DNA from: Longimicrobiales bacterium
GTDB lineage: Bacteria; Gemmatimonadota; Gemmatimonadetes; Longimicrobiales; Gaopeijiaceae
Assembly: GCA_951828585.1 (NCBI GenBank)
Contig: OX639991.1
Location: forward strand, 2,574,576-2,638,575
DNA: 64,000 bases
Reading direction: 5' to 3'
A model generated the notes under the pieces. It was not told the DNA's origin. It did not search any database and worked only from the letters and a program-made list of their open reading frames with translations. Shown here piece after piece: positions 20,101 to 35,870 of this stretch (the first letter of the stretch is position 1; each line of letters opens with the position of its first letter). The translations under genes and the position numbers were made by a program.

Positions 20101-20670
20101 TCAGCTCCCTTCCCCCACCGCCGCACCAATCACGCGGGCGTACCACTCGAGGGTCTCGAAGAAGCCCGCGAAGGACTTCTCGTACTGCGCCTCCCGGGGC
20201 TCGCCGTCTTCCTCGAAGTTGCGCGACACGTTCGAGACCGCCATGTGGGCGACCGGTAGCGCCTTCACGCGCAGGAAGAGAAGCTGGAGATGGTTGTGCA
20301 GCTGCACGCCCCCGTAACCGCCCGCCGAAACCGTCACGATCCCGACCGGCTTCCGGAACCACTCCCCGTAGATGTAGTCGAGCGCGTTCTTCAGCACCCC
20401 CGGCATGGACCCGTTGTACTCGGGACTGACGATCACCACAGCGTCGGCGGAGGCGATGGTCTCGGAGAAGAGCTCCAGCCCGGGCGGAGGATCGTCGCGC
20501 ATGTGCAGGCGCTCCTCCATGATCGGGAGGTCCAGCTCGGCGAGGTCGAGGAGGGCGGCGTCGGCACCCGCGCTTGCCAGACGGTCGACGGCGAAGCGGG
20601 CTGCCCGTATCGACTGGCGGCCGCGCCGCACCGAGCCGATGACGACCGGGATGCGCAGGGGGGCGGTCAT
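20101..20670 (-). CDS. NAD(P)H-dependent FMN reductase
   Basis: A 189-aa flavodoxin-like reductase. PVVIGSVRRGRQSIRAARF binds the FMN phosphate and SPEYNGSMPGVLKNALDYI is the diagnostic loop of the NADPH-dependent FMN reductase/azoreductase family. It should deliver reduced flavin or reduce quinones. Its ATG at 20670 overlaps the stop of the aryl-CoA ligase by 4 bp, which suggests a role connected with the aromatic pathway, for example quinone or flavin reduction; that link is inferred from position only. Confidence 0.88.
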   Translation of the reverse strand: MTAPLRIPVVIGSVRRGRQSIRAARFAVDRLASAGADAALLDLAELDLPIMEERLHMRDDPPPGLELFSETIASADAVVIVSPEYNGSMPGVLKNALDYIYGEWFRKPVGIVTVSAGGYGGVQLHNHLQLLFLRVKALPVAHMAVSNVSRNFEEDGEPREAQYEKSFAGFFETLEWYARVIGAAVGEGS

Positions 20671-22199
20671 CGCGGCCCCCGTTTGAGCGCGCCCCGGTCC
20701 ACCTTGCCCAGATGGGTGCGGGGCAGGTCATCCAGGAAATGGATTTCGCGGGGATGCTTGTACGACTCAAGGCGCCCGCGCAGGTGGGCGCGCAGGACCG
20801 CGCGCGTCGCCCCGTCGCCGGTGGCCTCCGACGGCACCACAAACGCCGCCGGGACCGTCAGCCCGTCTTTCGTTTCGATTCCCACCACCGCCGCCTCCTT
20901 GACGTCCGGGTGTTCCAGCAGGCACTCCTCGGCCTCGCGGGGCGAGAACCACTTCCCCGAGACCTTGAGCAGGTCGTCGTCGCGTCCCTGGTAGGTGAAG
21001 TAGCCGTCACGGTCGCGAGTCATCATGTCGCCCGAAATGTACCACTCGCCGGCGAAAGCGTTCCGCGTGGCTTCGGGGTGCTGCCAGTAGCCGTGGGCGC
21101 GGGAATGGCCCCGCACCCGCATCCGGCCGACCTCGCCGGGACCGACCTCGCGGCCGTCGTCGCCGCGGAGCCGCACCTCGAAGCCGGGGACCTCGGTGCC
21201 GAGGGTGCCGGGACGCACCCGGCCGGGCCGGTTCGAGATGAAGACGTGCCACATCTCGGCCGTGCCGAGGCCGTCGAGGAGCTCGACGCCGAAGGTGTCG
21301 TTCCAGCGGTGGTGGAGGGGGACGGGGAGGGGTTCGCCGGCCGAGGTGGCCAGGCGGAGGCAGCTCAGGTCGCGGTTGTGCGCCTCTGGGTGCGACACCA
21401 TGTGGTTCACCATCGTGGGCACGTTGATGAGGATCGTGGGGCGGTGCCGCTCGATCTGCGCGAAGAGCTCGTCGGCGGTGCAGCGCTCGGGGAAGAGGAC
21501 CGCGGACCCGCCCGCGGCGAGGGGGAAGAAGAGGTTGGATCCGGTGGCGTAGCCGAAGTAGAGCTTGGGGACGGAGAGGGTGATGTCGTCGGCGGTGTGG
21601 CCGATGACCTGCTTCGCGTAGCACTCGGTGGAGTTGGCGAATGAGGCGTGACTCTGGACGACGCCCTTGGGACGACCCGTGGTCCCGCCGGAGAAGAGCC
21701 AGATGGCGGGGTCGTCGGAATGTGAAGCGTAGTTGACATAATGTAAACTGGAGTTGTCAATTTGTGCGTCTCCGTCGTCGGTGCCGAGGACTAGGAGGCG
21801 GGGGGCGTGGTGTGCTCCGCGGGTCGCGCGGGTGAAGGTGACGGCGTGGTCGGCGTGGACGACGGCGGCGTTGGCGCGCGTGTAGTCGTACAGCTCGCGG
21901 ATGCGGTTTTCGCCCAGGTAGCAGTTGACCATCACCCCCACCGCGCCGCGCTTGAGTGTGCCGAAGAGGGCGGCGGGGAAGTCGGGGATGTCGGGGAGGC
22001 CGATGAGGACGCGTTCTTCGGGGCGCACTCCCATGGCCTCGAGCGCGTTGGCGAAGCGGTTGGCGCGAGCCTGGAGGGCGGCGTAGGTGACGGTGCCGTC
22101 CCGGGTTCGTAGCGCGATGCGTTCGCCCAGTCCCTCCCGGATGCGGTCGTCGAGGAAGTAGTCGGCGATGTTGAAGGGGTGGGGTGGGTGGAAGGGCAT
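20667..22199 (-). CDS. Benzoate/anthranilate-CoA ligase family protein
   Basis: A 510-aa acyl-adenylate-forming enzyme. The AMP-binding loop is FSGGTTGRPKGVVQSH, the adenine-binding region YFGYATGSNLFF and LLDGLGTAEMWHVFIS match benzoate-CoA ligase-type enzymes, then YISGDMMTRDRDGYFTYQGR and the hinge/catalytic lysine region LPRTHLGKVDRGALKR. It activates an aromatic acid with ATP and CoA. Because the facing operon makes anthranilate from tryptophan and contains an aryl-CoA monooxygenase/reductase, anthranilate (2-aminobenzoate) is the most likely substrate; salicylate or benzoate are alternatives. It diverges from the operon over 218 bp, consistent with shared regulation. Confidence 0.88.
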   Translation of the reverse strand: MPFHPPHPFNIADYFLDDRIREGLGERIALRTRDGTVTYAALQARANRFANALEAMGVRPEERVLIGLPDIPDFPAALFGTLKRGAVGVMVNCYLGENRIRELYDYTRANAAVVHADHAVTFTRATRGAHHAPRLLVLGTDDGDAQIDNSSLHYVNYASHSDDPAIWLFSGGTTGRPKGVVQSHASFANSTECYAKQVIGHTADDITLSVPKLYFGYATGSNLFFPLAAGGSAVLFPERCTADELFAQIERHRPTILINVPTMVNHMVSHPEAHNRDLSCLRLATSAGEPLPVPLHHRWNDTFGVELLDGLGTAEMWHVFISNRPGRVRPGTLGTEVPGFEVRLRGDDGREVGPGEVGRMRVRGHSRAHGYWQHPEATRNAFAGEWYISGDMMTRDRDGYFTYQGRDDDLLKVSGKWFSPREAEECLLEHPDVKEAAVVGIETKDGLTVPAAFVVPSEATGDGATRAVLRAHLRGRLESYKHPREIHFLDDLPRTHLGKVDRGALKRGPR

Positions 22200-22417: not shown

Positions 22418-23302
22418 ATGGGTACAGCGTCGAGCGGGGATCGGGCGCCCACCGAGGGCCGCCGAAGCCTACGCCACGGGCCGTCCTGGGGTTACGCGAC
22501 CTGGACCGAGCTGGCGGGGGCCGGGTTGGGGCGGCGTGCGGACGCGGCGCGGCTGGTGGCGCTTGTCCCGGTCGGGGCGGTCGAGGCCCACGGCCCCCAC
22601 CTCCCCCTCGTCACCGACGTCGTGATCGCCAGCGCGGCCGCCGAAGCCGCGCTGCCGGGTCTTCGCCGCCTCGGCCTGCACCCCATGCTGCTGCCCCCCC
22701 TCCCCTACACCGCCGCACCCTTCGCCGAAGCCTTCCCCGGTACCATCTCGGTGCGTCCCGCCACCGTAGCCGCGCTGTTGGCGGACATCGCCACCTCCCT
22801 GGAACGGCAGGGCGTGGCCGCGCTTGTCGTCGTCAACGCGCACCTCGATCCCGCCCACCTGGACGCCATCCGCGACGCCGTCCGCGCACACGACGGCCCC
22901 ATGCCCGTCATCCACCCCGACCTCACCGAACGGCGGTGGGTGCTACGCCTGACGGACGAGCTCCGTAGCGGGGCGTGTCACGCGGGATGCTACGAGACCT
23001 CGGTGGTGATGGCCGCCGCGCCCCACCTGGTCCGCGAGGAGTCGCGCCGGGCGCTGCCCGGGAACCCGGCTTCGCTGTCGGCGGCGATCCGCGCCGGGAA
23101 GACCACCTTCGAGGACGCGGGGGTGGCGGACGCGTATTGCGGGGACCCCGCCGCGGCGACCGTGGAGGAGGGCAGGGAGACGGTGGCCGTGCTGGGACGG
23201 ATCGTAGTGGAGGCGGTGGCGGAGCGGGTCGGTGGAGAGGGGGATGCGGGCGTCCGTCAGAAGCGTGTGGCGGAAGTGATGGGGGACGGAGGTGAGCGAT
23301 GA
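22418..23302 (+). CDS. Creatininase-family amidohydrolase; candidate N-formylkynurenine formamidase
   Basis: A 294-aa protein with the creatininase-family metal site EAHGPHLPLVTD (Glu56, His58, Asp67), a further ligand region VVVNAHLDPAHLDAI, and GACHAGCYETSVVMAA with the conserved Glu. Members hydrolyse cyclic amides or formamides (creatinine, GTP-derived formamides such as FAPy in ArfB/MftE relatives). It heads an operon that encodes tryptophan dioxygenase and kynureninase but no recognisable KynB-type formamidase, so it is a good candidate to hydrolyse N-formylkynurenine; alternatively it may open a ring intermediate. ATG 22418 has GGAG 8 bp upstream. The next gene overlaps by 4 bp. Confidence 0.8.
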   Translation: MGTASSGDRAPTEGRRSLRHGPSWGYATWTELAGAGLGRRADAARLVALVPVGAVEAHGPHLPLVTDVVIASAAAEAALPGLRRLGLHPMLLPPLPYTAAPFAEAFPGTISVRPATVAALLADIATSLERQGVAALVVVNAHLDPAHLDAIRDAVRAHDGPMPVIHPDLTERRWVLRLTDELRSGACHAGCYETSVVMAAAPHLVREESRRALPGNPASLSAAIRAGKTTFEDAGVADAYCGDPAAATVEEGRETVAVLGRIVVEAVAERVGGEGDAGVRQKRVAEVMGDGGER

Positions 23303-24132
23303 GAGACTCCGAACAGCGCGGAGAGGAGGCCCGGCGGATGGCCAGGCGCCACTCGACGCCGACGCTCTCCGGCAAGGGCGCCGTGGTGACGGGTGGCGGA
23401 CGGGGGATCGGGGCGGCTGTTGCACGGGCGTTGGCCGCGGAGGGGGCCGCGGTCGTCGTGACGGCGCGCACTCTGGACGAGATCGTGGCAGTCGCCGAGG
23501 ACCTGCGCCGGAGCGGCGGCAGCGCCCACGCGATCGTCTGCGACGTGACCGACCAGGGCTCCGTCGCTGCAATGGCGGCCCGGGCGCACGAGCTTCTGGG
23601 CAGCGTCGATATCCTGGTCAACAACGCCGGCGTGGCGCGTTCGGCCCCCTTCCTGAAGGTGACGCTCGACGAGTGGGAGACCATCCACCGCGTAAACGCG
23701 ACCGGGCCGCTCCTGGTGGCGCAGGCGTTTCTTCCGGCCATGCTGGAACGGGGGTGGGGCCGGATCGTCAATGTGGCGTCGGTGGCGAGCCTCCTGGGGG
23801 CCCGCTACATCACCTCCTATGCGGCTTCGAAGCACGCCCTCGTGGGAATGACTCGCTGCCTGGCCGATGAGCTGGCGGGCACCGGCGTCACCGTCAACTC
23901 GGTCTGTCCCGGCTACGTGGACACGCCCATGACGAACGAGAACATCGAACGAATTGCGGCAAAGACGGGCAAGGACGCGGAAGAGGTCCGCACGGGCCTC
24001 GAGGAGATGCAGCCTGGTGGCCGCCTTATCACGCCGGAAGAGGTGGCGCACGCCGTGATGACCTTCGTGCCACAGGAGGCGGCGTCGCTGCAGGGCGCGG
24101 AACTGGTGGTGCGGGGTGGGGGTGCCAGGTGA
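23299..24132 (+). CDS. Short-chain dehydrogenase/reductase
   Basis: A 277-aa classical SDR. The NAD(P) loop is VVTGGGRGIGAAVARAL (about residues 29-45), the structural NNAG motif is present, and the catalytic tetrad includes the Ser in ASVASLLG, Tyr174 and Lys178 in SYAASKHAL. An N-terminal extension of about 25 residues precedes the fold. Position between the creatininase-family and RidA genes in the aryl-CoA operon suggests it oxidises or reduces the alicyclic 3-hydroxy/oxo CoA intermediate formed after ring reduction. Start and stop both overlap neighbours by 4 bp. Confidence 0.88.
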   Translation: MRDSEQRGEEARRMARRHSTPTLSGKGAVVTGGGRGIGAAVARALAAEGAAVVVTARTLDEIVAVAEDLRRSGGSAHAIVCDVTDQGSVAAMAARAHELLGSVDILVNNAGVARSAPFLKVTLDEWETIHRVNATGPLLVAQAFLPAMLERGWGRIVNVASVASLLGARYITSYAASKHALVGMTRCLADELAGTGVTVNSVCPGYVDTPMTNENIERIAAKTGKDAEEVRTGLEEMQPGGRLITPEEVAHAVMTFVPQEAASLQGAELVVRGGGAR

Positions 24133-24572
24133 CCTTCGAGATCTTCAATCCGGCGGCGCTGGGGGCTCCCCGCGGGTGGAACAACGGGATGCTCGCGCCT
24201 GAAGGGGGTCGGGTGCTCTTTGTGGCGGGGCAGATCGGGGTGGGGGCGGGGGCGACGCTCGCCACCCAGTTCGAGGCTGCGCTCGCCAACGTTGCGGCGG
24301 TGGTGGAGGAGGCCGGGGGGACGGTCGCCGACGTAGGGCGGCTGACCACTTACGTGACCGACATGGAGGCCTATCGCGAATCGCTGGCCGAGGTGGGGGC
24401 CGCGTACAGGGCCGTCTTCGGGAAGCACTTTCCCGCCATGGCGCTGGTGGCCGTGACCGAGCTGGTCGATCCGCGTGCGGTGGTGGAGGTCGAGGCCGCG
24501 GCGGTCATCCCGCAGGCTCAATCGGGTGGGGACTCCGCCATGGACCTGCCCACAGCGAAGCAACAGCCATGA
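24129..24572 (+). CDS. RidA-family protein (candidate enamine/imine deaminase)
   Basis: A 147-aa YjgF/YER057c/UK114 (RidA) protein; GRVLFVAGQIGV and LATQFEAALANVAAVVEEAGG followed by TDMEAYRESLAEV match the trimeric barrel fold, and AMALVAVTELVDPRAVVEVEA is the typical C-terminal strand. RidA enzymes hydrolyse enamines/imines to ketones and ammonia. In this operon the predicted product of the fused monooxygenase/reductase, 2-amino-5-oxocyclohex-1-enecarboxyl-CoA, is an enamine, so this protein may release its nitrogen. The GTG start overlaps the SDR stop by 4 bp. The canonical arginine that binds the substrate carboxylate is not clearly visible (DPRAVVEVE is the best match), which could reflect a CoA-bound substrate. 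Confidence 0.82.
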   Translation: MTFEIFNPAALGAPRGWNNGMLAPEGGRVLFVAGQIGVGAGATLATQFEAALANVAAVVEEAGGTVADVGRLTTYVTDMEAYRESLAEVGAAYRAVFGKHFPAMALVAVTELVDPRAVVEVEAAAVIPQAQSGGDSAMDLPTAKQQP

Positions 24573-25390
24573 CCGCACTTGATTCCTTATCCATGGAAGC
24601 CCCCCGTTCGTTTCTGCTGGACTTCGATCCGGAGACGGCGGTCGTGCGGATCACCCTCAACCGGCCCGAGCGGCTGAACGCGCTGACCTTCGAGGTCTAC
24701 GACGAGCTGAGGAACACCTTTCGGGCGCTGGACGGCGAGGCGGAGGTGCGCGCGATCGTGATTACGGGGGCGGGGCGCGGGTTTTGTACGGGCGGCGATG
24801 TGGAGGACATTATCGGGGCGCTCTTTGGGCGGGACTTCGAGGGGCTGCTCGAGTTTACGCGCATGACTTGCGACCTGATCGCGGCGATTCGGCAGTGCCG
24901 ACAGCCGGTGGTGGCGGCGCTCAACGGAACCGTGGCGGGCGCGGGGGCGATCATCGCGACGGCGTGTGATGTGCGGATCGCGGCCGAGTCGGCGCGGATC
25001 GCGTACCTGTTCACGCGGGTGGGCCTTTCGGGCGCGGACATGGGCGCGGCGTGGATGCTGCCGCGAATCGTGGGGCTTGGGCGGGCGAGCGAGCTGCTCA
25101 TGTCGGGGGCGTTCATCGATGCGACGGAGGCACATCGGATCGGGCTGTACAATAGCGTGGTGCCCGACGGGGAGGCCCTTGGTGTGGCGACGGAGTTTGC
25201 CGAGAAGCTGGCGCGGGGGCCGTCGTTCGCACTGCAGGTAACCAAGGAGGCGCTCAACCGCGAGGCGCACATGGAGCTGGAGGACGCGCTCGAGGCGGAG
25301 GCGCGGGCGCAGGCGATGTGCATGCTGAACCCGAACTTCCGCGAGGCGTACGAGGCGTTCGTGGAGAAGCGGAGGCCGCGCTTTGTTTGA
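24569..25390 (+). CDS. Enoyl-CoA hydratase/isomerase family protein
   Basis: A 273-aa crotonase-fold protein. ITGAGRGFCTGGDVEDI and ALNGTVAGAGAIIATACDVRIA form the oxyanion hole that stabilises the CoA thioester enolate; the following TRVGLSGADMGAAWMLPRIVG segment has Ser/Gly/Asp where classical hydratases carry the catalytic glutamate (usually GxxPExG), so the chemistry may be isomerisation or ring hydrolysis rather than simple hydration. The operon position fits a step after ring dearomatisation of anthraniloyl-CoA. The ATG overlaps the RidA stop by 4 bp. Confidence 0.88.
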   Translation: MTALDSLSMEAPRSFLLDFDPETAVVRITLNRPERLNALTFEVYDELRNTFRALDGEAEVRAIVITGAGRGFCTGGDVEDIIGALFGRDFEGLLEFTRMTCDLIAAIRQCRQPVVAALNGTVAGAGAIIATACDVRIAAESARIAYLFTRVGLSGADMGAAWMLPRIVGLGRASELLMSGAFIDATEAHRIGLYNSVVPDGEALGVATEFAEKLARGPSFALQVTKEALNREAHMELEDALEAEARAQAMCMLNPNFREAYEAFVEKRRPRFV

Positions 25391-26540
25391 CGCGGGCGGG
25401 CTGTCGCTGGATCCGGTTGCGGCCTTTATCGATGGGCGCCACCGGGAGTACCGGGAGCGGGTGGTGACGTTTTGCCGGGAGGAGATCGGGGACGGGCACG
25501 ATCCCGAGACGGATGCGGCGGCGCGGATGCGGGCGCGGGAACTGGTGGGGCGGATGGGGGCGGCGGGCCTTTTCGAGCCGATCCGCGACGGGGATGTGCG
25601 CGGCTGCCTGGTGGCGCGGGAGGTGCTGGGGTGGTGGTCGCCGCTGGCTGACGCGGTATTCGCGCTACAAGGGCTGAGCGCGACGCCCGGGTTGACCCGG
25701 AAGGTGGATCCGGGGGGCTGGGTGGATTTGGCGCTGGCGGGCAAGGCAATGGGCGCATTCGCCATGACGGAGTGGGAGGCGGGCTCGGATGTGGCCTCGA
25801 TGACCACGACGGCGGTGCCGGACGGCGCCGGGTACCGGCTGAACGGGGGGAAGACCTTCATCTCGAACGCGGGGATCGCGGACTTCTACGTGGTGTTCGC
25901 GTCGACCGACCCGGAGGCGGGGACCTGGGGGATCTCGTGCTTCGTGGTTCCCTCGGATGCCGAAGGCTTCGAGTTCACCGGGTCGCTGGTGATGAGCGCG
26001 CCGCATCCGCTGGGCGAGGTGCGGTTCAACGACTGTCGCGTTCCGGGCGAGATGATGCTCGGAGACGTGGGGACCGGATTCAAGACCGGGATGGCCACGC
26101 TGGACCGACTTCGTCCGACCGTCGCGGCGGCGGCGTGCGGGATGGCGGGCCGGGCGCTGTGGGAAGCGCTGGAGCACGCCCGGGGGCGGGAGCAGTTCGG
26201 CAAACCGCTGGGGTCGTTCCAGCTGATCCAGGAGAAGCTGTCCCATTCCGCCATGGAGCTGACCGCGGGGCGGTTGCTGGCGTACCGGGCCGGGTGGGAG
26301 AAGGACCGGGGGGCCGAGCGCATCACGATGGAGGCAGCGATGGCCAAGGCGTTCTCGACCGAGGCGGCGCAGCGGATCGTGGACCGGGCCGTGCAGGTGC
26401 TGGGCGGCAGGGGCGTGCTGGCCAGTCATCCGGTGGACCACCTGTACCGCAGCGTGAGGGCGCTCAGGATCTACGAGGGGACGACCGAGGTCCAGCACCT
26501 GATCATCGGGGGTGGGCTGGTGCGGGGGGACGGGCGGTGA
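25383..26540 (+). CDS. Acyl-CoA dehydrogenase family protein
   Basis: A 385-aa FAD-dependent acyl-CoA dehydrogenase. AFAMTEWEAGSDVASMTTTA is the flavin/substrate signature, FISNAGIADFYVVFA follows, and the C-terminal helical bundle has REQFGKPLGSFQLIQEKL and VLGGRGVLASHPVDHLYR, ending RALRIYEGTTEVQHLIIG, where the Glu of YEGT is the usual catalytic base. It probably dehydrogenates a cyclohexane- or ring-opened CoA intermediate. The start is TTG 25383, chosen because GGAGG lies 8 bp upstream at 25370-25374 and it overlaps the previous stop by 8 bp. Confidence 0.9.
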   Translation: MFDAGGLSLDPVAAFIDGRHREYRERVVTFCREEIGDGHDPETDAAARMRARELVGRMGAAGLFEPIRDGDVRGCLVAREVLGWWSPLADAVFALQGLSATPGLTRKVDPGGWVDLALAGKAMGAFAMTEWEAGSDVASMTTTAVPDGAGYRLNGGKTFISNAGIADFYVVFASTDPEAGTWGISCFVVPSDAEGFEFTGSLVMSAPHPLGEVRFNDCRVPGEMMLGDVGTGFKTGMATLDRLRPTVAAAACGMAGRALWEALEHARGREQFGKPLGSFQLIQEKLSHSAMELTAGRLLAYRAGWEKDRGAERITMEAAMAKAFSTEAAQRIVDRAVQVLGGRGVLASHPVDHLYRSVRALRIYEGTTEVQHLIIGGGLVRGDGR

Positions 26541-26556
26541 CGCGGAGCCGGCAACC

Positions 26557-29106
26557 TTGAGGATCAATGTGATAGGGGGTGGGCCCGGCGGGCTCTTCGC
26601 TGCGCTGCTCCTCAAGAAGGACGACCCGGGCCGCACCATCGAGGTCTTCGAGCGCAATCGCCCGGATGACACCTTCGGCTTCGGGGTGGTCTTCTCGGAC
26701 GCGACCCTGGAGGAGGTGGCCGAGGCCGACCCCGAGACCTTCCGCGAGATCGCGCAGCGCTTCTACCACTGGGACGACATCGACATCCACTACCAGGGTG
26801 AACTGCTGCGTTCGACGGGACACGGGTTTGCGGGACTGTCGCGCCGGGACCTGCTGTTGCTGCTGCACCGCCGCTGCCGGGAGGTGGGGGTCGTCCTCCA
26901 CTTCGAGCATGAGATCGCCGACCTGAACCCGTATCTGGACGCCGATCTGGTTATCGGGGCGGACGGGCTGAACAGTCTGGTGCGGGAGCGGTTTGCGGAC
27001 GCCTTCGAGCCAGCGGTCGACCGGCGCCCGAACCGCTTCGTCTGGCTGGGGACGACCCGGCCCTTTCCGGCATTCACCTTCTACTTCCGCGAGGACGAGC
27101 ACGGTCTATGGCGGGTGCACGCCTACCAGTACAAAGCGTCGGGCAAGTCGACCTTCATCGTCGAGGCCACCGAGGAGACGTGGCGGCGGGCGGGGTTGGA
27201 TACGGCCAGCGAGGAGGAGACGGTGGGTTTCCTGTCCCGGCTCTTCGAGGAGGAGCTGGAGGGGCATGCGCTGATCCGCAACCGGTCGCTGTGGCGGCAG
27301 TTTCCGACGATCGTGAACGGGCGCTGGTCGGCGGGGAATGTCGTACTGATCGGCGACGCGGCCCACACGGCGCACTTCTCGGTGGGGTCGGGGACGCGGC
27401 TGGCCATGCTGGACGGCATTGCGCTGGCCGGGGCGATGCGGGGGTTGGGGGGGGGTGCGACCGGTCAGGCGGAGGGAGCAGCGCAGGCGAAAACGGATGA
27501 GGCGACGAGGGACCCAGAATCCGACACGTGCCCGCGGGCCGGTGACCGGGCGGGTGATACAGGCTTCGCCGGTGCCCTGGCGGCCTACGAAGAGGAACGC
27601 CGCCGCCCGGTGGAGTCGTTGCAACGGGCGGCCCAGGCCAGCCTTCAGTGGTTCGAGGACACGGAGCGGTACTTCCGGCTCGAGCCCGTACAGTTTGTCT
27701 TCTCTCTGTTGACGCGGAGCCTGCGCATCTCGCACGAGAACCTGCGCGAGCGGGATCCGGCGTTCGTCGATGTGGTGGACCGGTGGGTGGCCGCGAAGGC
27801 CGAAGTCCAGGCGGGGGTGACCATCGCCGAGCACGAAGCCGCATTGGGGATCGTGCGGGAGCCCGGGGAGGCTGGGCCGGTTACTCCAGAGCCCGAGGCA
27901 TCTGCCAAAACCGGGGTCGTCGTCGGCCCGGCGCTTCCCGGTACCCTGGAGCCTGTCCGCCGGTTACCGCTTCCCCATCCCCCCCCGCCCCCCCTCTTCA
28001 CCCCCTTCCGGCTGCGCGACATGTTGCTCGCCAACCGCATCGGCGTATCGGCCATGTGCCAGTACTCCGCCGAGGACGGCACGGTCGACGACTGGCACCT
28101 GGTCAACCTCGGATCACGGGCGATCGGCGGCGCGGGGCTGGTCATGACGGAGATGACCGCGATTGGGCGCGACGGACGAATCTCGCCGGGGTGCGCGGGG
28201 CTGTACACGGGGGAGCACGTAGCCGCATGGCGCCGCTTGACCGGATTTGTGAAGCGTTTCACAAGCGCGAAGATCGGCATGCAGCTCGGCCACGCGGGCC
28301 GCAAGGGGTCGACGCGGCTGTTCTGGGAGGGGCCCGACGAGCCGCTGGAAGAAGGCGGCTGGCCCATCGTGTCGGCGTCTCCGATCGGGTACTTCGACCA
28401 CAGCCCGGTGCCGGACGAGCTGGACGAGGCTGGCATGCGTGCCCTGATCGGCGAGTTCGAGCGTGCGACCGCCATGGCGGCCGAGGCCGGCTTCGACCTC
28501 GTCGAGATCCACATGGCGCACGGCTACCTGCTGGCCAGCTTCCTGTCCCCGCTCACTAACCTTCGAACCGACCGCTACGGGGGAAGTCAGGAGAACCGGT
28601 TGCGCTTCCCGCTGCGGGTCGTGCGGGCCGTGCGCGCACTCTGGCCCGACGAGAAGCCTCTGTCGGTGCGGCTGTCCGCGGTGGACTGGTGGCACGGCGG
28701 CAACGAACCGGGCGACGCCGTCGAGATCGCCCGGGCGCTCAAGGCGAACGGTTGCGACATCGTGGATGTCTCGTCGGGGCAAACGGTTCCGTACCAGCGC
28801 CCCCGCTACGGCCGCCAGTACCAGACCCCATTCGCCGACCGGATCCGCCACGAGGCCGGGATCGCGACGATGGCGGTCGGCAACATCTCGTCCTTCGAGG
28901 ACGTCAACGGGATCATCGCGTCGGGCCGCGCCGACCTCTGCCTCATGGCGCGCGCTCACCTGTGGGATCCATACTGGACCAGGCACGCCGCGTACGCGCT
29001 GGGGTATCCCCTGCAGTGGCCTCCACAGTACGACACACTTGACCGGTACACGCCGCGCTTCGGGGCGGCAGCCGAGGCCTTCGGGCCGGAGACCCGAGAT
29101 GAGTGA
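26557..29106 (+). CDS. Fused aryl-CoA monooxygenase/reductase (anthraniloyl-CoA or salicylyl-CoA type)
   Basis: An 849-aa two-domain flavoenzyme. Residues about 1-420 are a FAD aromatic hydroxylase (RINVIGGGPGGLFAALLL at the N-terminus; GDAAHTAHFSVGSGTRLAML near residue 265). Residues about 475-845 are an Old Yellow Enzyme-type FMN reductase (LANRIGVSAMCQYSAEDG, IGMQLGHAGRKGS, EIHMAHGYLLASFLSPLTN). This fusion is known from 2-aminobenzoyl-CoA monooxygenase/reductase, which hydroxylates and then reduces the ring of anthraniloyl-CoA; salicylyl-CoA 5-hydroxylase relatives share it. Two low-complexity insertions (about residues 295-335, and a Pro-rich linker at about 430-478) make it longer than I expect for the family. 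The TTG start at 26557 is preferred: GGAG lies 9 bp upstream and the FAD loop starts at once. Confidence 0.9.
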   Translation: MRINVIGGGPGGLFAALLLKKDDPGRTIEVFERNRPDDTFGFGVVFSDATLEEVAEADPETFREIAQRFYHWDDIDIHYQGELLRSTGHGFAGLSRRDLLLLLHRRCREVGVVLHFEHEIADLNPYLDADLVIGADGLNSLVRERFADAFEPAVDRRPNRFVWLGTTRPFPAFTFYFREDEHGLWRVHAYQYKASGKSTFIVEATEETWRRAGLDTASEEETVGFLSRLFEEELEGHALIRNRSLWRQFPTIVNGRWSAGNVVLIGDAAHTAHFSVGSGTRLAMLDGIALAGAMRGLGGGATGQAEGAAQAKTDEATRDPESDTCPRAGDRAGDTGFAGALAAYEEERRRPVESLQRAAQASLQWFEDTERYFRLEPVQFVFSLLTRSLRISHENLRERDPAFVDVVDRWVAAKAEVQAGVTIAEHEAALGIVREPGEAGPVTPEPEASAKTGVVVGPALPGTLEPVRRLPLPHPPPPPLFTPFRLRDMLLANRIGVSAMCQYSAEDGTVDDWHLVNLGSRAIGGAGLVMTEMTAIGRDGRISPGCAGLYTGEHVAAWRRLTGFVKRFTSAKIGMQLGHAGRKGSTRLFWEGPDEPLEEGGWPIVSASPIGYFDHSPVPDELDEAGMRALIGEFERATAMAAEAGFDLVEIHMAHGYLLASFLSPLTNLRTDRYGGSQENRLRFPLRVVRAVRALWPDEKPLSVRLSAVDWWHGGNEPGDAVEIARALKANGCDIVDVSSGQTVPYQRPRYGRQYQTPFADRIRHEAGIATMAVGNISSFEDVNGIIASGRADLCLMARAHLWDPYWTRHAAYALGYPLQWPPQYDTLDRYTPRFGAAAEAFGPETRDE

Positions 29107-29890
29107 ACAACAGGATCCGATCAATTACCAGAGCCTCGCGATGCTCCCGGAGCTGCTGTCCCTGCAACGGCCGATCTCCGACCCGCCGGAGCATGACGAG
29201 ATGCTCTTCATCATCGTGCACCAGGTCCACGAGCTGTGGTTCAAGGCCCTCCTGCACGAACTCGACCGCGTACGGGAGCTTCTCACGGCGGGCGATGAGG
29301 CCCGGACCGCCGCGACGCTGAAGCGTGTGCGCGCGATCGTGAAGGTGCTGGTCGGCCAGCTGGACATCCTGGAGACGATGACCCCCGTCGAGTTCGAGTC
29401 CTTCCGGGATCACCTCGAAACGGCCAGCGGTTTCCAGTCGTCCCAGTTCCGCGAGCTGGAGTTCGCGCTGGGAATGAAGCGGGCGGCGGTGCTCGAGGCG
29501 TTCCCGGATCCCGGCGAGCGGGGCCGGCTGGAGCGCAGACTCGCGGAGCCGTCGCTCTGGGATGCCTTCCTGCGGTTCCTGGTCCACAACGGCTACGAGG
29601 TCCCGGAGCGGGTGCTGGCTCGTGATCTGACCCAACCGGTCGCGTCCGACGCTGAGGTGCAGCGGGTGCTGGCCGAGGCGTATCGCGCGGACCCGGCGCT
29701 GGTCAACCTGTGTGAGTGCCTGGTGGACCTGGACGAGGGTTTCCAGGAGTGGCGCTACCGGCACCTCAAGATGACGGAGCGCACGATCGGCAACAAACCG
29801 GGAACCGGTGACAGCGCGGGGGTGGCCTACCTGGCATCCACCCTGAAGCCGGCGTTCCCGGATCTGTGGGAGATGAGGACGGCGTTGTGA
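29099..29890 (+). CDS. kynA: Tryptophan 2,3-dioxygenase
   Basis: A 263-aa heme dioxygenase that opens the indole ring of L-tryptophan to N-formylkynurenine. The conserved substrate-binding segment DEMLFIIVHQVHELWFKALLHE near residue 38-58 holds the distal His; FRDHLETASGFQSSQFRELE is the family signature; the heme-ligand histidine lies in EWRYRHLKMTERTIGNKPGTG (about residue 220). The length is normal for bacterial enzymes. ATG 29099 overlaps the end of the aryl-CoA monooxygenase/reductase gene by 8 bp, and kynureninase follows with a 4-bp overlap. Confidence 0.96.
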   Translation: MSEQQDPINYQSLAMLPELLSLQRPISDPPEHDEMLFIIVHQVHELWFKALLHELDRVRELLTAGDEARTAATLKRVRAIVKVLVGQLDILETMTPVEFESFRDHLETASGFQSSQFRELEFALGMKRAAVLEAFPDPGERGRLERRLAEPSLWDAFLRFLVHNGYEVPERVLARDLTQPVASDAEVQRVLAEAYRADPALVNLCECLVDLDEGFQEWRYRHLKMTERTIGNKPGTGDSAGVAYLASTLKPAFPDLWEMRTAL

Positions 29891-31107
29891 CCGGGGGGCT
29901 TGCCCGCCACTACTCGCGGTTCCGGGTCTCGGAGCGGGTGCTGCTGACGGGGCACTCCCACCAGGCCTGGCCGGATATGGCCTTCGAGGCGCAGCAGCAG
30001 GCGTGGCTGGATGCGGCCGAGATGGTGGACGACAAGTGGGACCGGGCGTTCGGAATGGCGGACGAGGTGCGGGCGGGGTACCGGCGGTTGTTGGACGATC
30101 CGGATGGGCATATTGCGCTGGGACATAACACGCACGAGCTGGTGGTGCGGTTCCTGTCGGCGTTGCCGTTGCGGGAGCGGCCGCGGCTGGTGACGACGGA
30201 CGGGGAGTTTCATACGGTGCGGCGGCAGCTGGATCGGCTGGAGGAAGAGGGGATTGAGGTGGTGAGGGTGGGGACGGGTGGGGGGCGGGGGACGGGACGG
30301 GGGCCGTCGGATTCGGGTGGGGCGCCGGACGCGGGTGATTCGATCGCCGGACGAATCATTGCGGCGGTCGACGACCGCACGGCGGCGGTGCTGGTGTCGT
30401 CGGTGCTCTTCCGGGACGCGCGGATTGTGGATGGGCTGGACGAGGTGGCGCGGGCGTGTGCGCGGGTGGGGGCCGAGTTGTTGGTCGATGCGTACCATTC
30501 GCTCAACGCGGTGCCGTTTTCGGTGGTGGGGATGGGGCTGGGGGACGCGTTCGTGGTGGGAGGCGGGTACAAGTACTGCCAGCTCGGGGAGGGGAACTGC
30601 TTCTTGAGGTTTCCGCGGGACTGCGGGTTGAGGCCGGTGTTGACGGGGTGGTTTGCGGAGTTCGGGACGCTGGCGGGGGGGCCGGGGGAGGGTGGGGTAT
30701 CGTATGGGGAGGGACATCTTCGGTTTGCGGGGTCGACGTATGATCCGGTCAGTCACTACCGGGCCGCGGCGGTGTTCGAGTTTTTTCGGGAGCAGGGGTT
30801 GGGTGTGGACCATTTGCGCGAGGTGAGCCTGGCGCAAATACGGCGGCTGGCGGGGGGGGTGGACGCGCTGGACGCGGATCCGGACGTGCTGAGCCGGGAT
30901 CGTAGCGTGCGGCTGTCGAAGCGGGGCGGCTTTCTGGCCATGGACACGCCCCGTGCCGGGGAGATCTGCTGCAAGTTGCGGGGTCGTGGGGTCTATGCGG
31001 ACTTCCGGGGCCGCGTGTTGCGGTTGGGGCCGGCGCCGTATGTGACCGGGGAGCAGCTGGATGAGGCGGTGGCCGTGCTGGGGGAGATGGCAGCCTCGCT
31101 GTCGTGA
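29887..31107 (+). CDS. kynU: Kynureninase
   Basis: A 406-aa fold-type I PLP enzyme of the class V aminotransferase group. HYSRFRVSERVLLTGHSHQAWP is a kynureninase-like N-terminus, DAYHSLNAVPF holds the PLP aspartate, and GGGYKYCQLGEGNCFLR has the Schiff-base lysine (Lys229). It cleaves kynurenine to anthranilate and alanine, which links the tryptophan dioxygenase to the anthranilate-activating CoA ligase. A Gly-rich insertion (about residues 130-150) resembles those in the monooxygenase/reductase. GTG 29887 overlaps the kynA stop by 4 bp; a GTG at 29866 is possible but less likely. Confidence 0.92.
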   Translation: MTGGLARHYSRFRVSERVLLTGHSHQAWPDMAFEAQQQAWLDAAEMVDDKWDRAFGMADEVRAGYRRLLDDPDGHIALGHNTHELVVRFLSALPLRERPRLVTTDGEFHTVRRQLDRLEEEGIEVVRVGTGGGRGTGRGPSDSGGAPDAGDSIAGRIIAAVDDRTAAVLVSSVLFRDARIVDGLDEVARACARVGAELLVDAYHSLNAVPFSVVGMGLGDAFVVGGGYKYCQLGEGNCFLRFPRDCGLRPVLTGWFAEFGTLAGGPGEGGVSYGEGHLRFAGSTYDPVSHYRAAAVFEFFREQGLGVDHLREVSLAQIRRLAGGVDALDADPDVLSRDRSVRLSKRGGFLAMDTPRAGEICCKLRGRGVYADFRGRVLRLGPAPYVTGEQLDEAVAVLGEMAASLS

Positions 31108-33516: not shown

Positions 33517-33557
33517 GGCAATCCAATCCGATCCCCCGGCCTGTGGAGGAATCCCCA

Positions 33558-33992
33558 ATGCACGATGTCAACCTGTTCGCGGTACTGGTCGCCGGCGTCG
33601 TCCCGATGGTCATCGGCGCGCTCTGGTACGGCCCGGTCTTCGGCAAGCGCTGGATGGCGCTCATGGAGACCACCGAGGAAGAGCTCCGGGAGGGGTTCAA
33701 CCCCCTCAAAGTCCATGGTGTGGGTTTCGTGCTGGCGCTGGTCACGGCCTACGTGATCGCGCAGCTGGTGGCCGAGGTCTCGCCCGAGAGCGTCTCCTCG
33801 ATGGGGGGAAGTGGAGGATCCGCGATGGTCGGGGTCCACGTGGCGCTAATGGCGCTGGTGGCCTTCGTGCTGCCGGTGTCACACCAGTCGGTCACATTCG
33901 AGAGGCGCAAGGCGGGGCTCGCGTGGTTGAACATCGGCTACAACGGCGTTGCGCTGCTGGGGCAGGCGGTGGTTATCGCGTTGTGGAGGTGA
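33558..33992 (+). CDS. DUF1761 membrane protein
   Basis: A 144-aa protein with four predicted transmembrane helices: LFAVLVAGVVPMVIGALWYG, VHGVGFVLALVTAYVIAQLV, MVGVHVALMALVAFVLPVSH and LNIGYNGVALLGQAVVIALW. The WYGPVFGKRWMALMETTEEE loop after helix 1 is the DUF1761 hallmark. Function is unknown. ATG 33558 is supported by GGAGG at 33545-33549. Confidence 0.88.
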   Translation: MHDVNLFAVLVAGVVPMVIGALWYGPVFGKRWMALMETTEEELREGFNPLKVHGVGFVLALVTAYVIAQLVAEVSPESVSSMGGSGGSAMVGVHVALMALVAFVLPVSHQSVTFERRKAGLAWLNIGYNGVALLGQAVVIALWR

Positions 33993-34008: not shown

Positions 34009-34530
34009 TCACCCATCCTGTCCGTTTGATTCCCGCTTCGGGATCACCTTCCCCGTCTCGCGATCGTAATCCACGATGTGCTCCCATTCCGACGCATCGG
34101 AGCGCGCCACTACCGCGACCACATCCTCGGTGTCGCTCTCGTTGAAGACCTCGTGGGGAACGCCCGGCTCGATGAAGATGAAGTCGCCCGCGTGATTCAC
34201 GATGGAGTGGCGGAGGTTGGGGCCGAAGTCGTGGCGGACGGTGCCTTCGAGGATGTAGAGCATGACCTCGAAGTCGACGTGGATGTGGGCGAAGGCGACG
34301 CCGCCGGGCGGGATGCGGGCCACGTTCATGGACAGGTCGCGGGCGGGGACGTTCTTTCCCGAGAGGCCGGTCTTGTAGTGGATGCCGTTCCAGCCGCGGT
34401 GGATGCCGCTGGCGCGGATGGTGTGGATGCCGTCGTGGCCGTCCGGGGTGCCGGGCCGGTTTTCGTGCGGTGTGAGGCCGGGTTTCGCGGCGGGCGGGCC
34501 ACCCGCGTCGGAGGGGCTGCGGTCAGTCAC
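34009..34530 (-). CDS. Cupin-domain protein
   Basis: A 173-aa single-cupin protein. The barrel motifs are AFAHIHVDFEVMLYILEGTV (metal-binding His-x-His...Glu) and GDFIFIEPGVPHEVFNES (second-motif His). The first about 40 residues are a low-complexity Pro/Gly/Asp region. The protein may be a sugar isomerase-like, oxygenase or sensory cupin; no substrate can be assigned. The GTG start overlaps the HAD gene stop by 4 bp, so the two are coupled. Confidence 0.82.
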   Translation of the reverse strand: MTDRSPSDAGGPPAAKPGLTPHENRPGTPDGHDGIHTIRASGIHRGWNGIHYKTGLSGKNVPARDLSMNVARIPPGGVAFAHIHVDFEVMLYILEGTVRHDFGPNLRHSIVNHAGDFIFIEPGVPHEVFNESDTEDVVAVVARSDASEWEHIVDYDRETGKVIPKRESNGQDG

Positions 34531-35234
34531 CGGGCCCCCAGGAGCAGATCGGCCAAACTGGCCATGTCGGGGACTTCGGCGTTTGCGCGCGCAACGGCCG
34601 GAGGCGTCGCGCCGCTGTCGCTCCCGCGGCTGGGCCGGTTGACGTGCACGGTGGCGTAGCCGAGCGTCGAGGCCGGAGCAATGTCGTGGAAGAGGCTCTG
34701 CGCGACGTGCAGCGTGCGGTCCACGGGAATCCCTGAACGCATGGCCATCTCCTCGAAGTGTGCGGGGTCGGGTTTGTAACTGCCGACCTGCTGCGCCGTG
34801 ACCACCCAGTCGAAGTCGGTGTCGAGCCACTCCGTGGTGGCGGCGAAGAGGTCGTCGTCGACGTTGGAGACGATACCGAGCTGGAAGCGTGCCCCGAGGC
34901 GGTGGAGGGCGTCGATGGTGTCCGGGAAGGGGGGCCAGCCGCCGACCGAGGCCGCGAAGGCGTCGCACTGGGACGGCGTGGGGTGGAAGCTGAGTGGGGG
35001 GCCCATGCGTTCCAGCGTGAGAGCGAGGACTTGGCGGTAGGTGCGATAGCGCTCCGCCTGTACGACGTGTTCCGCATCGCCGAAGGCCGCGAGGATGGCG
35101 GCGTCGCTTGCCGCCGTGCCGTGTTGGGCGCAGGCCGCATTGACCGCCCCGATGATCCCCGCCTCCCAGTCGACCAGTGTGCCGTAGCAGTCGAATGTGA
35201 GAAGGTCGAAGCGATTGGGATCGAGGGCACGCAT
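34527..35234 (-). CDS. HAD hydrolase, haloacid dehalogenase type II-like
   Basis: A 235-aa HAD protein beginning with DLLTFDCYGTLVDWEAGIIG, where the nucleophile Asp and the Cys-Tyr-Gly-Thr variant of motif I resemble L-2-haloacid dehalogenases and related phosphatases. SNVDDDLFAAT (motif II region), the Lys in GSYKPDPAHF (motif III) and the motif IV region VAQSLFHDIAPAS are present. Whether it dehalogenates or removes phosphate cannot be told. ATG 35234 is a sound start. It forms a two-gene unit with the cupin gene. Confidence 0.85.
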   Translation of the reverse strand: MRALDPNRFDLLTFDCYGTLVDWEAGIIGAVNAACAQHGTAASDAAILAAFGDAEHVVQAERYRTYRQVLALTLERMGPPLSFHPTPSQCDAFAASVGGWPPFPDTIDALHRLGARFQLGIVSNVDDDLFAATTEWLDTDFDWVVTAQQVGSYKPDPAHFEEMAMRSGIPVDRTLHVAQSLFHDIAPASTLGYATVHVNRPSRGSDSGATPPAVARANAEVPDMASLADLLLGAR

Positions 35235-35266
35235 GCTCTTGGGGGCCGATGGTTTGGGCGGTGCCG

Positions 35267-35773
35267 CTACATGTCCGGGAAGTCGGCAGTCGGTCCGAAC
35301 TGTTGGGGCACCGGAACGTCGAGCATGCGCAGGTAGACACCGAGTTGGGCACGGTGGTGGATCATGTGGTCCATGATGAAGGTCCGCACCACAACGCCCT
35401 TGGGAAGCGTGAATCGCGGCTCGCCAGCCACGAGCATGGTCCACGGACCCGCGAGATCCTCCTCCGAGCAGCTCTCGATGGCGCCGCGGGCCGCGGCGGT
35501 GGCCTGGTCCAGTGCCGTGGTGAGTTCGGCGGCGGAGCCGAGCGCTGGCATCGGCGGGGGGGCGCCCTCCGCAGGACTGATGTCGAACTCGGACATCGAC
35601 AGGGTCGCCACGGTCCAGTTGGGGAGGTTGGCCAGATGGGTCGCCAGTTCGCCCAGCGTCCAGGATCGGTCGTGGGGTCGCCAGTCCAGATGATCGTCCG
35701 GAACCGCTTCCAACAGCGTCCTCGACCCCGCCGCGATCTGATCGAACGCTGCCAGGGTGTGTCTTACAGACAT
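35267..35773 (-). CDS. DinB-family metal-dependent protein
   Basis: A 168-aa four-helix-bundle protein of the DinB/YfiT type. The metal-binding histidines are in WTLGELATHLANLPNW and DHMIHHRAQLGVYLRML, which together give the three-His site of the family. DinB-like proteins include mycothiol- or bacillithiol-dependent transferases, while many remain uncharacterised. ATG 35773 has a strong GAGGAAGAG ribosome binding site. Confidence 0.88.
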   Translation of the reverse strand: MSVRHTLAAFDQIAAGSRTLLEAVPDDHLDWRPHDRSWTLGELATHLANLPNWTVATLSMSEFDISPAEGAPPPMPALGSAAELTTALDQATAAARGAIESCSEEDLAGPWTMLVAGEPRFTLPKGVVVRTFIMDHMIHHRAQLGVYLRMLDVPVPQQFGPTADFPDM

Positions 35774-35870
35774 GGTCTCTTCCTCGGTCCTTGTGATGGG
35801 TCGTGTTGCCCGCCCGTCGGCCGGCGCGCCGGAAAAGTAACACGCTTGCCTGCGGTCACACGCGGCAATC

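Follow-up and report, generated by a model that had tools for sequence, protein, structure and literature searches.

The first gene of an eight-gene operon, here termed CRE, encodes a creatininase-family protein that probably acts as an N-formylkynurenine formamidase standing in for KynB; we infer its substrate, metals and mechanism by analogy and from genome comparison. An initial annotation, made from the DNA sequence alone, had proposed such a non-orthologous replacement. The gap in the operon, the tie of CRE to tryptophan 2,3-dioxygenase (TDO) and the avoidance of KynB in Gemmatimonadota argue for that proposal, and the lack of such avoidance in Acidobacteriota argues against it. The stretch analysed, hereafter the window, comprises 64,000 nucleotides (G000:C1:2574576-2638575); the genome consists of one contig of 4,472,315 bases. 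Its relevant features are as follows.

20667-22199, minus strand: LIG, benzoate-CoA-ligase family, likely 2-aminobenzoate-CoA ligase, divergent to CRE (TIGR02262, 465.4 bits; cut-off 375.25)
22418-23302, plus strand: CRE, creatininase-family metallohydrolase of 294 aa, candidate N-formylkynurenine formamidase (PF02633, metal-site alignment, model)
23299-24132, plus strand: SDR, short-chain dehydrogenase (NCBIfam search)
24129-24572, plus strand: RidA-like protein (Rid/YjgF), which may act on the ring product as an enamine deaminase
24569-25390, plus strand: ECH, enoyl-CoA hydratase family (NF006107, 374 bits; cut-off 330)
25383-26540, plus strand: ACAD, acyl-CoA dehydrogenase
26512-29106, plus strand: ACMR-like fusion of an FAD monooxygenase and an old-yellow-enzyme domain; start codon uncertain
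29099-29890, plus strand: KynA/TDO, tryptophan 2,3-dioxygenase (PF03301, 200.9 bits)
29866-31107, plus strand: KynU, kynureninase, divergent in sequence (KYNU_C, 32.8 bits, cut-off 27; PDB 1qz9)

The eight plus-strand genes from 22418 onward have neighbouring ends that overlap by 4-29 bases, in the order CRE, SDR, RidA-like, ECH, ACAD, ACMR-like, TDO and KynU. The ACMR-like product matched both PF01494 and PF00724 above their cut-offs, and its score of 1055.2 bits against NF006101 (salicylyl-CoA 5-hydroxylase/oxidoreductase) lay slightly under the cut-off of 1078. The presence of both KynA and KynU, as first annotated, was borne out by the profile scores listed above. KynU also matched the PDB kynureninase 1qz9 at 3.2e-9, and an NCBIfam search with it returned no match at E up to 0.001; judged by its sequence, it is a real but divergent kynureninase. 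It represents a divergent kynureninase branch common to CRE operons. Read together, the cluster would lead from tryptophan through anthranilate to a non-aromatic CoA product, and the sole step in it without an assigned enzyme is the deformylation of N-formylkynurenine. In the pathway that we propose, TDO would make N-formylkynurenine from tryptophan, CRE would hydrolyse it to kynurenine and formate, KynU would turn kynurenine into anthranilate, the divergent ligase would make anthraniloyl-CoA, and ACMR with the beta-oxidation-type enzymes would break the latter down. By analogy with creatininase and the creatininase-family deformylase BrbF, CRE would hold two divalent metals, and a metal-activated water would attack the formyl carbon.

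The CRE reading frame runs uninterrupted from ATG 22418 to the stop at 23302; an alternative longer reading begins at GTG 22361. In a Pfam profile search the product matched PF02633 with 167.6 bits (cut-off 31.3), which upholds its assignment to the creatininase family, and no other Pfam family, the KynB family PF04199 included, matched at E up to 1. The metal-site residues E56, H58 and D67 lie where they had been placed at first, within EAHG at 56 and LVTD at 64; together with H142 and E193 they are invariant in all 82 aligned members, and position 144 is Asp in 73 and Glu in nine. Residues E56, H58, D67, H142, D144, H188 and E193 align with the metal-site region of creatininase, D144 falling at creatininase E122. 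Residues of this region serve as metal ligands in creatininase, and E122 is named in PDB titles. An AlphaFold2 model built from the 82 aligned members had a mean pLDDT of 90.3 and superposed on creatininase 3a6f with Z 24.3 and an rmsd of 2.5 over 232 residues. CRE is thus predicted to have the creatininase fold with the conserved residues of a two-metal site, in which the metals themselves would be held as in creatininase.

Of the five PF02633 matches in the whole genome, CRE alone lies in the operon. Compared with eight paralogues, its clade has EAHG in place of EQHG and mostly, with variation in some members, N[AS]H[LF][DE]P for NGHGGN and HAG[RQC] for HAGE. A homologue at L257 is 82% identical to CRE. 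In a tree of 50 rows (41 CRE and nine other), a branch with an SH-aLRT of 99 set the CRE rows apart, several phyla being intermixed among them; the placement of one long row (own_L001) is unsure. Assignment of CRE as a true creatininase (TIGR04448, 73.3 bits; equivalog cut-off 235), as MftE (TIGR03964, 106 bits; equivalog cut-off 172) or as IolN (NF041098, 25.9 bits; equivalog cut-off 245) was rejected.

The statement that the window lacks a KynB-type cyclase proved correct, and we extended the search to the 4.47-Mb genome. Its only PF04199 match (C1:458388-458912) lies about 2.1 Mb from the operon and encodes a protein of 281 aa with, by inspection, a lipoprotein-like N-terminus. This protein scored 66.9 bits against TIGR03035 (cut-off 223) and, in a tree of 54 cyclases, grouped on a long branch with two other distant ones. 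We therefore rejected it as the KynB of the operon on account of that score, its remote locus and its position outside both clades of TDO-linked KynBs. A co-regulated KynB elsewhere in the genome had been named as the result that would speak against the replacement; the only cyclase found is distant in both sequence and place. In the region L007 (genome 448-466 kb; L004, L006), an exported-looking creatininase relative lies about 4 kb from this lipoprotein-like cyclase, and by inspection a quinoprotein-like gene is near both. The window had also been said to lack an alpha/beta-hydrolase formamidase. Nine gene-call open reading frames contain a GxSxG motif; for seven of them, all but 33543-33992 and 34527-35843, the claim stands, since five belong to other families and two are CRE and KynU.

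To place the operon in a wider context, we searched 200 Gemmatimonadota genomes, the set being identical for every search. CRE orthologues were found in 47, TDO in 125 and ACMR (counted at E <= 1e-114, full-length) in 90; CRE and TDO occurred together in 45 (Fisher 8e-9), one of which (G137) was counted on a fragmentary TDO match. The 47 were drawn from 50 matching genomes, with G070 (147 bits, 37%), G106 (80.5) and G038 (78) left out as other relatives; four genes, each split over two matches (G057, G063, G066 and G151), were counted once each. In the two CRE genomes without TDO (G110 and G159), the expected place of TDO is beyond the contig end, judged for G159 by the gene order of G096. TDO coordinates were available for 122 of the 125 TDO genomes. 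Among the 44 CRE genomes with listed TDO coordinates, 32 have CRE and TDO 3.2-7.1 kb apart on one strand, and 12 have the two genes on separate contigs.

We next considered the distribution of KynB. A strong KynB was defined by a score of at least 155 bits, with the addition of G079 (matched in two pieces); this threshold, which 28 of the 30 TDO-linked KynBs attain, was chosen because all 200 genomes stay under the TIGR03035 cut-off. The 81 genomes with both TDO and ACMR divided into 43 with CRE, 30 with a strong KynB, two with both and 10 with neither (Fisher 3e-11), counts that are not independent because the KynB genomes come mostly from one family (f5). In 30 genomes KynB and TDO are no more than 2 kb apart, and CRE orthologues are absent from all 30; part of this exclusion may be due to descent because the f5 modules form a separate lineage. 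The exclusion is also seen within a second family (f4), in which 13 genomes have CRE and six (G036, G040, G103, G106, G120 and G147) have a TDO-linked KynB. In the cyclase tree, the cyclases of five CRE genomes (G142, G177, G221, G222 and G224) fell outside both TDO-linked KynB clades, that of G177 being the sister of one.

A total of 34 TDO genomes (24 without and 10 with ACMR) contain neither CRE nor a KynB of 155 bits, and the absence of KynB alone therefore does not demand CRE; at a looser 94 bits, neither enzyme was present in 30 of 122 genomes. Examples are G006, G044, G140 and G189, and some such genomes have an adjoining kynureninase. Weaker cyclases occur in three of the 24 genomes without ACMR (G143, 153 bits; G176, 145 bits; G171, 119 bits, that of G171 being beside TDO). 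Among the 10 with ACMR, the clusters of G052, G083 and G194 are broken by contig ends; in G107 a PF04199 cyclase and ACMR are separated by about 4 kb. No formamidase was recognised among selected genes inspected by eye near TDO at L131, L133, L135-L138, L143, L144 and L147-L149, where neither enzyme is present; at L136, about 2 kb separate TDO from a creatininase relative (46 bits) that looks exported. In G192, which belongs to the genus of the window, CRE, the ligase and ACMR have been lost while ECH, TDO and KynU are kept, and no match to TIGR03035 was found. The locus concerned (G192:C5; L150, L374) is a natural deletion, with the remaining ECH, TDO and KynU beside a MetG-like gene.

The distant CRE relative of G070, a genome with a TDO-linked KynB, is found beside ligase and ACMR-like genes. 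It is encoded at L371 (G070:C22:8000-20108) between ACMR-like and hydantoinase-like genes, carries EPHG, NNHFEP and HAGRYE, and has transporter-like genes as well as the ligase at the same locus, the gene names being partly by eye; the locus perhaps serves the uptake and hydrolysis of another anthranilate amide.

Among 199 Acidobacteriota genomes, CRE was detected in 12 at 240-376 bits, the next score being 123. TDO is present in 11 of the 12 (G407 is the exception) compared with 51 of the 187 others (p 1e-5). Five of the 12 (G234, G250, G290, G295 and G407) have a cyclase of 156-166 bits, none of them beside TDO. Judged by score, a cyclase of at least 155 bits occurs in 4 of 11 TDO genomes with CRE versus 23 of 51 without it (p 0.74); CRE does not avoid KynB-like cyclases in this phylum. 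KynB is beside TDO in eight Acidobacteriota (G257, G283, G306, G316, G343, G361, G369 and G409), none with CRE, and eight are too few to tell. The gene order in G255 and G226 is the same as in the window, and in G295 the ligase lies between TDO and CRE. At L345 (G290:C18:1-14000), a weaker creatininase relative (80.8 bits) is flanked on one side by a TDO of the long type and on the other by a ligase.

A scan of named genomes for CRE gave 509 confirmed loci, of which the best 80 were read; some of these are on contigs of genomes that belong to the 200-genome set as well. They came from Gemmatimonadota, a few unplaced bacteria, Acidobacteriota, Planctomycetota, Polyangia/Myxococcales and Eisenbacteria, and since nearly all of the genomes are metagenome bins, single contigs may be misplaced. 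None of these 80 loci contained a KynB over 100 bits. All 26 whole genomes that are titled as another phylum among the 80 were then searched for TDO and cyclase; the set of 199 Acidobacteriota contains two of them (G213 and G216) as well. TDO was present in 26 of 26, including those without TDO near CRE, and a cyclase over 70 bits in three (G224, 177 bits; G222, 150 bits; G221, 146 bits), whose cyclases form a clade of their own apart from the TDO-linked KynBs. In seven of the 26 (G200, G201, G205, G210, G211, G214 and G217) the TDO is a longer, one-piece protein encoded on another contig, and the tie between CRE and TDO is therefore not just the inheritance of a shared cluster. The co-occurrence with TDO that the initial annotation had suggested examining thus holds across these sets; the rarity of KynB alongside CRE holds for Gemmatimonadota and the 26 genomes of other phyla and fails in Acidobacteriota.

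The neighbours of CRE bring up a second reading. Among the best 80 of 509 loci, many broken by contig ends, a ligase was found at 66, ACMR at 45 and the window-type TDO at 34; the 24 with full flanks gave 19, 16 and 14, respectively. The ligase is thus the most constant neighbour of CRE in these 80 loci, ahead of TDO, and it stays beside CRE at three loci where TDO is elsewhere (L202, L214 and L252). Kynureninases can accept N-formylkynurenine. CRE could hence be an arylformamidase or amidase of the following step, in which case KynU would yield N-formylanthranilate and CRE would free anthranilate for the ligase. Relatives of CRE may liberate anthranilate from further amides, N-acyl or cyclic. 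The constancy of the ligase fits this scheme, as do the ligase, ACMR-like and hydantoinase-like genes beside the distant relative of G070. The scheme explains the tie to TDO no better than deformylation of N-formylkynurenine does, however, and requires that N-formylkynurenine first pass kynureninase. Moreover, in G250 CRE lies directly 3' of TDO, and the 14.9-kb contig that carries CRE yielded no ligase. We regard action after kynureninase as unlikely.

CRE is also tied to anthranilate activation, a point absent from the initial annotation. The ACMR module accompanied CRE in 20 of the 20 neighbourhoods read first, and none of 20 TDO-KynB pairs had an adjoining ACMR. ACMR was found in 45 of the 47 Gemmatimonadota genomes with CRE, and in the other two the CRE contig ends before the place of ACMR; CRE was lost along with ACMR in G192; and 27 of the 82 CRE members gave weak matches to the IolN model. 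IolN is a creatininase-family enzyme that reportedly acts on a cyclic diketone. These observations would suit a ring-opening or C-C hydrolase acting on the product of ACMR, with the link to TDO arising from inheritance of a shared cluster. Against this role, CRE is absent from 45 of the 90 Gemmatimonadota ACMR genomes, kynureninase-ACMR clusters included, and such a role gives no reason to expect that CRE and KynB would avoid each other, as they do in Gemmatimonadota. We also rejected the idea that CRE is a swap for a 4HBT thioesterase, since this possible stand-in occurs in just 7 of 25 CRE-less ACMR loci and in 3 of 114 CRE-side sequences. We hold a role downstream of ACMR to be decidedly improbable.

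Twenty ACMR loci picked from genomes without CRE, not all of which have TDO or KynB, were read individually. Eighteen had an ACMR, ECH and ACAD module of another lineage, with ACMR 45-58% identical; the remaining two were a CRE-type cluster broken by a contig end (G194) and ACMR with a weak SDR only (G079). In G106, which is of the same family as many CRE genomes, KynU, TDO and KynB form one operon and the ACMR module is elsewhere, and in G018, G038, G054 and G078 a kynureninase adjoins ACMR, an IDO-type dioxygenase is close by, and a strong KynB is encoded at another locus. From the CRE-less ACMR genomes with KynB, it seems that where KynB is present, ACMR can break down anthranilate derived from tryptophan without CRE. 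Three candidates for a kynureninase beside TDO in f5 genomes were rejected as plain class-V aminotransferases without KYNU_C, and the link from TDO to ACMR is therefore not established for most f5 genomes; KYNU_C matches occur elsewhere in many of these.

Finally, deformylation by an alpha/beta-hydrolase, the exported-looking cyclase, a further creatininase relative or slow spontaneous hydrolysis, with CRE engaged in another reaction, for instance the hydrolysis of peptides or lactams, is very unlikely: the genome does have five PF02633 matches, the alpha/beta-hydrolase type was sought in the window only, and strong KynB and CRE are both missing from 34 TDO genomes, but CRE alone of the five is in the operon, and it is co-conserved with TDO. 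By inspection, moreover, the cyclase looks exported, as does at least one further relative of creatininase.

If CRE is the N-formylkynurenine formamidase, the second step of tryptophan catabolism gains the enzyme that it had lacked in many Gemmatimonadota, and likewise in some Acidobacteriota, Planctomycetota and Myxococcota that are mostly known from metagenome bins. The CRE clade, as a further kynurenine formamidase family, would have EAHG, N[AS]H[LF][DE]P and HAG[RQC][YF]E as its distinguishing motifs, a signature that would then separate CRE-type proteins from other creatininase relatives; clusters running from tryptophan to anthraniloyl-CoA with a refilled formamidase slot would also have been described. 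An arginase-family (PF00491) gene lies between kynureninase and ACMR in two Gemmatimonadota, G078 (L357:11517-12317, minus strand) and G054 (L358:9073-9885, plus strand); L355 and L356 have IDO, KynU and ACMR without it. The PF00491 gene of such IDO-KynU-ACMR operons is a possible third type of formamidase. That three unrelated metallohydrolase families (KynB, the CRE clade and the arginase family of some IDO-kynureninase-ACMR operons, L357 and L358) fill the deformylation step in several phyla is a speculation to which we give little credence at present.

Several known systems bear comparison with CRE. Kynurenine formamidase is described, in passages of PMC4243253, as a notable exception to the conservation of the pathway; the same passages present KynB as a two-zinc amidase with a fold of its own and describe a 365-nm kynurenine assay for formamidase. 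KynB (PF04199/TIGR03035) shares with CRE the proposed reaction, a metal dependence that is predicted for CRE, and the place in the TDO/kynureninase pathway, but no sequence relation between them was seen, CRE matching PF02633 only. Searches of open-licence PMC papers found no report of a creatininase-type kynurenine formamidase and no paper treating 2-aminobenzoyl-CoA together with kynureninase. The aerobic 2-aminobenzoyl-CoA pathway of Azoarcus evansii, as outlined in parts of PMC4539516, shares the ligase, ACMR and beta-oxidation-type enzymes, to which the cluster of the window adds TDO, KynU and CRE. Creatininase itself (PDB 1j2t and 3a6f) lines up with CRE in fold and metal-site residues, whereas the two are 25% identical and CRE has instead the NxH[LF][DE]P and HAG[RQC] motifs. 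Among NCBIfam models, MftE, the mycofactocin peptidase, gave CRE its best score, under the cut-off. The claim that relatives in the family hydrolyse formamides agrees with BrbF (SMc02977), annotated as a creatininase, which according to passages of PMC9478397 deformylates a formylamino-pyrimidine in riboflavin synthesis. By that description BrbF resembles CRE in its assignment to the creatininase family and in the deformylation proposed for CRE, and differs from it in pathway and in the substrate proposed for CRE; a formamidase of the creatininase family is thus already in print and is a family precedent for CRE.
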